Of a stretch of DNA of 47,707 nt, positions 10,133 to 17,744 are shown in pieces. Where the stretch lies: assembly GCA_026389365.1 (NCBI GenBank), contig JAPLHZ010000197.1, positions 1-47,707 on the forward strand. The letters run 5' to 3'. The stretch is from Cyanobacteriota bacterium. GTDB lineage: Bacteria; Cyanobacteriota; Cyanobacteriia; Leptolyngbyales; Leptolyngbyaceae. How positions within the stretch are numbered: the first letter of the stretch is position 1; the number at the start of each line of letters is the position of its first letter. Made by a program: the position numbers and the translations under genes. The notes under the pieces are model-generated. The model worked only from the letters and a program-made list of their open reading frames with translations. It had not been told where the DNA came from and did not search any database.

Positions 10133-11302
10133 GTGTCAAATCAACCTGAGTCTCTCCCATCTAAAGCTTCGGCTGAAGACCTCTTGCCAACTTTCAAGGC
10201 AGAGGAAACCCTACCATCTGGTCAGTCTATGAAGTTAGTCCGCCCGCCATCCCGGCCCGCACCTGTATCTGTGGAAAAAGCAATCCCTGCTGTTCCATCG
10301 GTCCCTGCGGTTGAATCTAAGATCACCCTTGAGCCAGTTCCGACTGATGGTCGTCAGCGTCCCATTCCGCCCCCCAGCGAACCGACTCAATATCGGGCGA
10401 TCGGAGTGGTGCGTGGTACCTACCATCCTTCGGATGAACAATTTACGCGGGGCAACATGGTAATGGCAGATGGTTCCCATGTGGAAGCTGTCTTGCTGGG
10501 CCGGGTCATGAGTTTGGTCCGAAATCATCTTCAACTAGACCAAGAGCATGTCTGGGTGGTCTATCCGAGAACTCGAGAACGGGAAGCAACCCTTCACCTT
10601 CAAATTGTTGGGGTGTGGGAGCCGGAGAATCTTAGTAACGAGCCGGATTCGGGCGAGTTGGGTGATGAGTTGACTCAGGATTCGATCGAGGAGGAGGTTC
10701 AAGAGGAATCTACTAAGGTATCAACTTCGGAGGTATCAACTTCGGAGGTATCAACTTCGGAGGTATCAACTTCGGAGGTATCAACTTCGGAGGTATCAAC
10801 TTCATCTGATGATGGCCTTCAGTATGTGCCGTCTTCTGAAGTAGACACCGATGTTTTTTCAATTCGGGGTGAAATCATTGCTCACGAACCCGAGAACCAC
10901 AAAGTTTCGGTGAAAATCCAGCAGGTTCTTCGTAAAAAAGGCGAGAAAGAGCCATCGATGAAGTATTTTAAGCTCAACCTTGAGGGTGATCTGAGGGGGA
11001 AAGTCTTAGGCTACTTCTGGGATCTGGATGTCAAACGAGATGGCCAAGATCTACGAATTCAGAGTGGTACTTCTATTGTCTTGGTAATGCCGAAGAAGTA
11101 TCCGAAACGTCCCATGATGGGCGGTCGTCGGCCTCTGGGGGGTGACGGTGGCAATCGTCGTCCGGGCGGTGGACCTCCTGGTCGGGGTGGCGATCGTCCT
11201 CCTGCTTCTCCGCCACCCACAAGGCGTGAGGGTGAGGTAGCTCCACCTAAGCCTGTGATGAAGCGAAAAGAAGATTCGGTGGAGACTAAGACTCCCGAAT
11301 AG
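10133..11302 (+). CDS. Conserved cyanobacterial protein of unknown function with VSTSE repeats
   Basis: A 389-residue protein that starts with GTG. It has a Pro/Ser-rich N-terminus (about 1-85), a conserved-looking domain (about 86-165: AIGVVRGTYHPSDEQFTRG, GSHVEAVLLGRVMSLV, WVVYPRT), an acidic linker with a pentapeptide repeat (196-225), a second domain (about 235-325: FSIRGEIIAHEP, VSVKIQQVLRKKGEKE, KYFKLNLEGDLRG), and a basic Gly/Arg/Pro-rich disordered tail. I recall homologues in other cyanobacteria, always without assigned function. The RG-rich tail suggests nucleic-acid binding, which is inference. There is no signal peptide. A terminator follows. Confidence 0.85.
   Translation: MSNQPESLPSKASAEDLLPTFKAEETLPSGQSMKLVRPPSRPAPVSVEKAIPAVPSVPAVESKITLEPVPTDGRQRPIPPPSEPTQYRAIGVVRGTYHPSDEQFTRGNMVMADGSHVEAVLLGRVMSLVRNHLQLDQEHVWVVYPRTREREATLHLQIVGVWEPENLSNEPDSGELGDELTQDSIEEEVQEESTKVSTSEVSTSEVSTSEVSTSEVSTSEVSTSSDDGLQYVPSSEVDTDVFSIRGEIIAHEPENHKVSVKIQQVLRKKGEKEPSMKYFKLNLEGDLRGKVLGYFWDLDVKRDGQDLRIQSGTSIVLVMPKKYPKRPMMGGRRPLGGDGGNRRPGGGPPGRGGDRPPASPPPTRREGEVAPPKPVMKRKEDSVETKTPE
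10718..10807. repeat. 15-bp coding tandem repeat (VSTSE), six copies
   Basis: Five exact copies of gtatcaacttcggag plus a sixth ending tcatct encode VSTSE five times then VSTSS. The lack of synonymous differences indicates a recent, probably length-variable expansion. Confidence 0.97.
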
Positions 11303-15609: not shown

Positions 15610-16182
15610 ATGGGACAGTCGAAGTCGGAGCTGAAATCTGAGTCAAACGTTGGGTCAGATCCTTGGTCTATCCAACATCAGACCGTAGACAATATCAACG
15701 ATATTACCAAGGACGTGGATTGTCGAACCGTTCAGTTACGGGTTGGGCCTGAATTTGTTGAGTTACGAGCGCTTCAGGCATTATTTAATCTCGTCGCGTT
15801 TTGGGCTAGCGATCGGACTCTTGAGGATCTTCAGACGGCTCTCGACCATAGTGACCCGATCGTTACAGCATGGGACAATACGACGCTCATCGGCTTTGCC
15901 CGCGCCACATCCGATGGAGTCTACCGCGCCACGATTTGGGATGTAGTGGTCGATCCTAACTATCAAGGGGCAGGCATTGGACGTAAACTCGTGCAGACCT
16001 TAATCACCCATCCGCGTCTCAGTCGCGTGGAACGCATTTATCTGATGACGACCAATCAGCAAGCCTTTTATGAACGGATTGGGTTTACAGAAAATCAGAC
16101 TACAACAATGGTTTTGCATAGTCAGCCTTTAGAGATGCCGGCCTTTCTTGAAGTTGAACTTGAATGTGATGTAGGACAGTAA
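15610..16182 (+). CDS. GNAT N-acetyltransferase, Ycf52-like
   Basis: A 190-residue acetyl-CoA-dependent acetyltransferase. After a poorly conserved first ~45 residues, the GNAT core has LIGFARATSDGVYRATIWDV, then motif A VVVDPNYQGAGIGRKLV (acetyl-CoA pyrophosphate loop), then RIYLMTTNQQAFYERIGF. This matches the Ycf52 family of cyanobacteria and red-algal plastids, related to plant plastid NSI/SNAT enzymes. Substrate is unknown. It precedes the TPP riboswitch and thiC. Confidence 0.88.
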   Translation: MGQSKSELKSESNVGSDPWSIQHQTVDNINDITKDVDCRTVQLRVGPEFVELRALQALFNLVAFWASDRTLEDLQTALDHSDPIVTAWDNTTLIGFARATSDGVYRATIWDVVVDPNYQGAGIGRKLVQTLITHPRLSRVERIYLMTTNQQAFYERIGFTENQTTTMVLHSQPLEMPAFLEVELECDVGQ

Positions 16183-16206
16183 CCCTAGAAACAGTGTAGG
16201 ATTTTT

Positions 16207-16334
16207 AGGTAGCTAGGGGTGCCGAAGAAACGATCGGCTGAGAAACCACCCTTAGAACCTGAAACGGGCTACAGATTACGAGAAATGTTATCGATCTGTT
16301 GTCTCTGGGTAATACCAGCGAAGGGAAGCTGTTT
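16207..16334 (+). promoter_or_regulatory. TPP (THI-box) riboswitch upstream of thiC, with an inserted hairpin
   Basis: Conserved blocks appear in order: aggggtgcc, ggctgagaaa, acccttagaacctga, then tctgggtaataccagcg and aagggaagct. P1 pairs agct at 16211-16214 with agct at 16327-16330, extended by wobbles. Normally the cctga block (P4 side) runs straight into tctgg (P5); here 41 extra bases (16263-16303) separate them and contain their own stem acagat/atctgt with an inner cga/tcg. A clear ribosome binding site follows at 16340-16346, with no U-run terminator visible, so control is probably at translation initiation. Confidence 0.93.
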
Positions 16335-16352
16335 ATTTTAAGGAAGAGTCAT

Positions 16353-17744
16353 ATGTTGCGTTCAGACTGGATTGCGAAACGTGCAGGACATGGCAATACT
16401 TCACAAATGCACTACGCCCGTCAGGGTTTGATTACGGAGGAAATGGATTACGTTGCAAAACGGGAAAAACTTCCTCCAACGTTAATTCGGGACGAAGTGG
16501 CACGGGGCCGGATGGTGATTCCAGCCAACATCAATCACCCCAATCTCGAACCGATGGCGATCGGAATTGCTTCGACCTGTAAGGTTAATGCAAACATCGG
16601 TGCATCGCCAAACTCGTCGGACATCAGCGAAGAAATCGCCAAACTCACCCTAGCCGTGAAATATGGTGCAGATACGCTAATGGATCTTTCCACAGGCGGC
16701 GGCAACTTAGACGAAATTCGGACGGCCATTATCAATGCGTCTCCAATTCCGATCGGTACCGTTCCCATTTATCAAGCCTTAGAAAGCGTCCACGGAAATT
16801 TCGACAATTTCACTGAAGATGACTTTCTTCACATCATTGAGAAGCACGCACAGCAAGGCGTAGACTACATGACAATCCATGCCGGATTGTTGATTGAGCA
16901 CCTACCCCTAACCCGTACTCGCCTCACTGGAATCGTCTCTCGTGGTGGTGGAATCATTGCCAAGTGGATGCTTCACCACAAGCGCCAAAATCCTTTGTAT
17001 ACGCGCTACACCGACATCATGAATATTTTCAAAAAATATGATGTCACCTTCAGTCTGGGCGATTCATTGCGTCCAGGTTGTAGTCATGATGCGACGGATG
17101 CGGCCCAATTGGCGGAACTCAAAACCCTGGGTAACTTGACCCGTCGGGCTTGGGAAGATGATTTGCAGGTAATGGTCGAAGGTCCGGGACATGTGCCCAT
17201 GGATCAAATCGAATTCAACGTCAAAAAACAAATGGAAGAATGCTCCGAAGCACCTTTCTATGTTTTAGGTCCATTGGTCACCGATATTGCGCCCGGTTAT
17301 GACCACATTACCAGTGCGATCGGTGCGGCGATGGCGGGTTGGTATGGTACGGCAATGCTTTGCTATGTGACTCCAAAAGAGCATTTAGGGTTGCCGAATG
17401 CTGAAGATGTTCGCAATGGTTTGATTGCTTATAAAATTGCAGCCCATGCAGCGGATATTGCCCGTCATCGTCCGGGTGCCCGCGATCGGGATGATGAACT
17501 GTCCCGCGCTCGGTACAACTTTGACTGGAATCGTCAATTTGAATTGTCCTTGGATCCTGAGCGCGCTCGGGAATACCATGATGAGACGCTTCCCGAAGAT
17601 GTCTACAAAACCGCAGAATTCTGTTCCATGTGTGGACCGAAGTTCTGCCCAATGCAGACCAAAATCGAAGATGAAGATCTGGCTGAATTACAGGCATTCT
17701 TGGTCAAAGATGGCGATCGCTTAAAGGCTGCGGCTGCGGTGTAG
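16353..17744 (+). CDS. thiC: Phosphomethylpyrimidine synthase ThiC
   Basis: Radical-SAM enzyme that rearranges aminoimidazole ribotide to the HMP-phosphate pyrimidine of thiamin. The start is ATG 16353, seven bases after aaggaag, giving 463 residues, the usual cyanobacterial length; the frame is open further upstream, but that stretch is the riboswitch. Motifs: [27 protein letters not shown], and the C-terminal cluster motif [12 protein letters not shown] (Cys-x2-Cys-x4-Cys). It is a single gene under TPP control and followed by terminator hairpins. Confidence 0.97.

Follow-up and report, generated by a model that had tools for sequence, protein, structure and literature searches.

J4/5 of the TPP riboswitch, which has been described as compact, binds the pyrophosphate in an RNA pocket that is among the best studied. 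In fungal TPP aptamers, the spacing between the two J4/5 guanines is conserved at 18 nt (PMC5882874). Most variation among TPP riboswitches falls in P3 and P1 (PMC6414600, PMC8786325), in agreement with a remark in a first-pass annotation of the locus described here that size variation normally lies in P3. According to one paper that treats variable insertions in riboswitches, long and poorly conserved stem-loops are tolerated at particular sites, a P3a stem-loop is present in 552 TPP sequences and absent from 355, and genuine low-scoring riboswitch matches with insertions at unusual positions exist (PMC2258182); its text as searched here does not name the J4/5 site in TPP. In the open-access literature searched, no TPP riboswitch with a helix in J4/5 is described; an earlier notice, for example in the early THI-element surveys or the alignment of the Rfam TPP family (RF00059), is possible.

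The window analyzed here, a 47,707-nt stretch of DNA from a cyanobacterium of the Leptolyngbyaceae, very probably carries a thiC-controlling TPP riboswitch whose pyrophosphate arm is turned into a three-way junction by a facultative hairpin in J4/5 (Table 1). With relaxed thresholds, cmscan matches 16205–16343 of the forward strand to the full length of RF00059 (model positions 1–105, E 2.2e-8), and this is the sole TPP match in the 4.54 Mb genome. The score of 47.2 bits lies below the gathering cut-off of 54.3, which is a curation threshold and not a biological feature, set for a model without columns for the insert; at the gathering threshold, Rfam has no match anywhere in the window. The RF00059 alignment skips 46 nt as unmodelled, made up of the insert and the interior of P5. 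The full-length match bears out the initial call of a TPP riboswitch with all core blocks, whose interval was drawn slightly short.

The CUGAGA block of J3/2 is present, and the P4/P5 arm (16258–16324) carries the GCG of J4/5 and the UAAU of L5. The residue numbers G60, A61, C77 and G78 follow the numbering of the E. coli thiM aptamer and were placed through the RF00059 alignment. ACCTGA occupies 16257–16262, and CTGGGTAATACCAG begins at 16305. The first-pass annotation had placed a 41-nt insertion between P4/A61 and P5; its coordinates proved exact, and the insertion does lie in the 5′ strand of J4/5, adjoining the pyrophosphate pocket. The J4/5 guanines are 59 nt apart and not at the compact spacing of 18 nt, which describes the fungal set and is not a curated RF00059 criterion.

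Table 1. Features of the TPP riboswitch and the thiC gene in the window.
Feature	Position	Strand	Basis or remark
TPP riboswitch match, RF00059	16205..16343	+	cmscan 47.2 bits
P1 5′ strand AGCU	16211..16214	+	pairs with 16327–16330
P2 5′ strand AGGG	16215..16218	+	RF00059 alignment; pairs with 16249–16252
P3 hairpin GCCGA/UCGGC	16221..16238	+	RF00059 alignment; covariation helix 3
CUGAGA pyrimidine-sensing block, J3/2	16238..16243	+	sequence, RF00059 alignment
P2 3′ strand CCCU	16249..16252	+	RF00059 alignment
P4 5′ strand CCU, then J4/5 G60 (16261) and A61 (16262)	16258..16262	+	RF00059 alignment
J4/5 insertion, 41 nt, extra hairpin GGGC.ACAGAU..CGA / UCGAUCUGU.GUC	16263..16303	+	fold; covariation
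U between insert and P5, last nt of J4/5 5′ strand, may pair with G16266	16304	+	sequence; fold
P5 hairpin CUGG-GUAAUA-CCAG, conserved UAAU in L5	16305..16318	+	RF00059 alignment
J4/5 3′ strand C77-G78 (16319–16320), P4 3′ strand AGG (16322–16324)	16319..16324	+	
P1 3′ strand AGCU	16327..16330	+	
Putative Shine-Dalgarno AAGGA, 8 nt 5′ of start codon	16340..16344	+	sequence
thiC, phosphomethylpyrimidine synthase, 463 aa + stop	16353..17744	+	TIGR00190 709.7 bits, cut-off 460

The insertion had also been credited with a hairpin of its own, and this hairpin is part of the MFE structure and is supported by covariation among relatives. The insert of the window folds at −10.9 kcal/mol, with ACAGAT/ATCTGT and CGA/TCG stems and a basal GGGC/GUCU helix across a U-U mismatch. 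Taken alone, this fold is only suggestive: 3 of 200 shuffled sequences were as good in one test, and two other tests gave p of 0.035 to 0.05. Several single inserts are only marginal against their shuffles (p 0.06–0.09). In pooled, alignment-free tests, inserts are more stably folded than their shuffles, with a Fisher p of 4.8e-9 for 9 cyanobacterial inserts and of 1.4e-15 for 18 inserts from four phyla.

All 12 cyanobacterial carriers form a stem at the insert despite mostly unrelated insert sequences. MAFFT misaligned the inserts across mixed carriers, so we aligned the 12 with a covariance model built from the four genus members. In this alignment, which includes close relatives (G000–G003) and, being fitted to the structure, yields counts that lean towards it, the insert helix has eight aligned pairs, of which seven show double changes, and pairing holds in 96.3% of cells. 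P2, P4 and P5 are invariant there, and the CCU of the P4 5′ strand and G60-A61 are invariant in carrier alignment A1. The whole-structure covariation score is 0.302, compared with 0.100 for shuffled and at most 0.060 for slid-partner controls. Because the alignment is fitted to the structure, the alignment-free shuffle test serves as independent support. Given conservation and covariation across relatives, the hairpin is well beyond chance.

Core and insert differ in their rates of change. Within the genus, 70–71 of 71 core positions are identical; the sister species G003 retains 70 of 71 core positions and 27 of 44 insert positions. Most inserts are one hairpin that starts 0–6 nt after A61 and ends 0–4 nt before P5, and some non-cyanobacterial inserts are two short hairpins. 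Inserts are 21 to 71 nt long, and apical loops are unrelated between lineages. On this comparative evidence, the insert has been kept as an RNA helix, and its sequence changes much faster than that of the core of the aptamer. The G003 locus (L036, 191–337) also has a 24-nt expansion of the P3 loop besides its J4/5 helix.

A TPP match is found in 369 of 390 sampled genomes of the class, and a J4/5 insert in at least 12 of the 390, as counted from pattern matches after false ones were removed by reading the sequences. This count is a lower bound because the patterns tolerate only limited departures from the core. The carriers are all four genus members, G010, G013, G026, G039, G040, G074, G161 and G185. 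They have the insertion point in common, in a background that keeps CCTGA, CTGGGTAAT[A/G]CCAGCG and AGGGAAGC, with CCTGC in place of CCTGA in the pair G161 and G185. A pattern scan of GTDB genomes yielded at least 17 further carrier loci in the Bacillota, Actinomycetota and Omnitrophota, with thiD-, thiC-, thi4-, thiS/thiG-, thiM-, thiE- or thiT-like frames downstream, as assigned by reading translations, except at L084, whose frame is N-masked. Several pattern matches were rejected: in those of genus g7, G181 and G205 a normal aptamer lies downstream of an ACCTGA-like string, that of G310 is without TPP landmarks, and in most of the at least 116 loci of the GTDB scan the true ACCTGA directly abuts P5. 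Neither of the two outcomes that the first-pass annotation named as refuting it is seen: in cyanobacteria the insertion is not common, and it does not align as a normal P4/P5 variant. The initial description of the insertion as unusual holds as to rarity but not as a one-off, since a whole genus, other cyanobacterial lineages and loci in three more phyla carry it.

In a ThiC tree, seven carriers that are family members fall in one group (SH-aLRT 100), and G039 and G040 lie elsewhere. The tree needs three insert changes, of which strongly supported branches force only one; several separate gains of the insert probably occurred, which is likely but not proven. In G161 (L239) and G185 (L240), the J4/5-insert switch precedes a frame for an SSS-family sodium/solute symporter and not thiC, and a similar SSS-type frame lies downstream in G074 (L238). 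The G161 frame matches TIGR00813 with an E of 7.7e-30 but under the cut-off of that family, and the G074 and G185 frames were judged by eye. This symporter may transport thiamin or one of its precursors.

In the window, the riboswitch lies directly upstream of thiC, and this gene context and the intact core indicate that TPP sensing is probably retained. We found no terminator-like or promoter-like sites near the switch (15900–16450 was scanned for terminator-like sites). This, together with the short distance from P1 to the Shine-Dalgarno sequence, suggests translational control of thiC. Against this, folding gives no clear sequestration of the Shine-Dalgarno sequence when bound: in ViennaRNA predictions for the window leader, its unpaired value is 0.81 when forced bound and 0.72 when free. 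The apo TPP riboswitch is reported to have an extended thiamin-sensing stem and to lack order in P1, J2-4 and P4 (PMC11751092), and the predicted free fold of the window agrees with this description. The complementary segments CUAGGGGUG/CACCCUUAG (in the window, 16213–16221 with 16247–16255) would form an extended P2 that is an alternative to P1; this pairing recurs in most of the cyanobacterial TPP leaders read and resembles the same apo conformer. A further pairing in the 5′ leader of the window MFE structure, UUUUUAGGU/ACCUGAAA, was rejected, as the G001 and G002 leaders are without AGGU. Upstream on the same strand, an ORF for a GNAT-type acetyltransferase (15610–16182) ends ∼20 nt 5′ of the riboswitch. 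Elsewhere in the window, ORF 10133–11302 contains a perfect 15-bp tandem repeat (10716–10803, 5.9 copies) that encodes a repeated STSEV pentapeptide.

We propose that the facultative hairpin, which follows G60-A61 directly on the J4/5 5′ strand, would make a three-way junction of the P4-J4/5-P5 arm. TPP would bind as usual, P4 and P5 would form its pyrophosphate pocket, and the extra helix would point away from that pocket. Binding would close P1 just 5′ of the Shine-Dalgarno site and repress ThiC translation. The added junction may make the bound fold somewhat costlier and could tune the TPP concentration of the response. In models of 12 leaders, the insert made the bound fold costlier in all 12, on average by 2.5 kcal/mol. 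Most of this increment is what nearest-neighbour models generically charge for one more junction, and it takes no account of ligand, magnesium or tertiary contacts.

The same uniform increase in modelled cost would also fit a hairpin that is itself an active part, selected because it tunes affinity or kinetics or docks elsewhere on the aptamer; the first-pass annotation had raised a change in affinity, or another binding partner, as a possibility. We regard this as possible if rather unlikely. The helix is kept with compensatory changes and has apparently been gained repeatedly at one point, but its unrelated apical loops and wide range of lengths speak against this reading, no shared receptor motif is seen among carriers, and maintenance of the stem may simply reflect avoidance of misfolding. 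It is unlikely, too, that the repeatedly evolved helix defines a distinct TPP riboswitch class with a three-way pyrophosphate arm, actively modulating affinity or adding a second input. Architecturally, we describe a variant of the TPP riboswitch that is rare and maintained, not a new class.

A two-input switch, in which the insert recognizes a protein or a second ligand, would suit the position adjoining the pyrophosphate pocket, and the inserts of two family members, G013 (L040) and G026 (L041), have the loop string GCCAAACCC in common. No loop motif is conserved beyond this close pair, however, and the insert diverges fast within the genus, which makes such a switch very improbable. A peripheral helix that is tolerated seems to us more likely than a second binding site, because the lineages share no apical motif and the core that contacts the ligand has not changed. 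Still less credible is an insertion that broke the riboswitch, leaving it to decay: eight of the nine scored thiC carriers fall under the Rfam cut-off, but the genus core stays nearly identical as the insert diverges, seven genomes of one ThiC group retain the insert, and the thiamin-gene context holds throughout the carriers. Least probable of all is that a small element, mobile or repeated, inserted itself into the leader. The insert is self-complementary and recurs at one site in unrelated lineages, but its sequences differ between lineages and the genome holds no second copy (best other match 26 bases, 85%, E 1.7).

The low scores of the carriers have a practical consequence. The standard RNA-family model undervalues them because of the extra J4/5 hairpin, and annotation based on the cut-off would therefore miss carriers of this kind. 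Natural variants that tolerate a whole helix in J4/5 mark where the TPP fold can be extended, and they can readily be compared with TPP switches that have no such helix.

Set beside known systems, the riboswitch of the window is closest to the E. coli thiM/thiC-type RF00059 aptamer. The two have P1–P5, CUGAGA, the UAAU of L5, the GCG of J4/5 and the thiC context in common, whereas the window differs in its 41-nt hairpin in the J4/5 5′ strand, the wide separation of its guanines and its sub-gathering score. In eukaryotes and some bacteria, TPP riboswitches have P3 expansions (PMC6414600, PMC12632268), which likewise vary in size outside the ligand contacts, but these lie in P3 and not in J4/5. 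Variable insertions of riboswitches, as described in PMC2258182, resemble the J4/5 helix in being long, poorly conserved stem-loops, and P3a resembles it in being a facultative hairpin of the same aptamer that leaves the core unchanged. P3a, however, belongs to the pyrimidine-sensing arm and is common, whereas the J4/5 helix belongs to the pyrophosphate arm and is rare.
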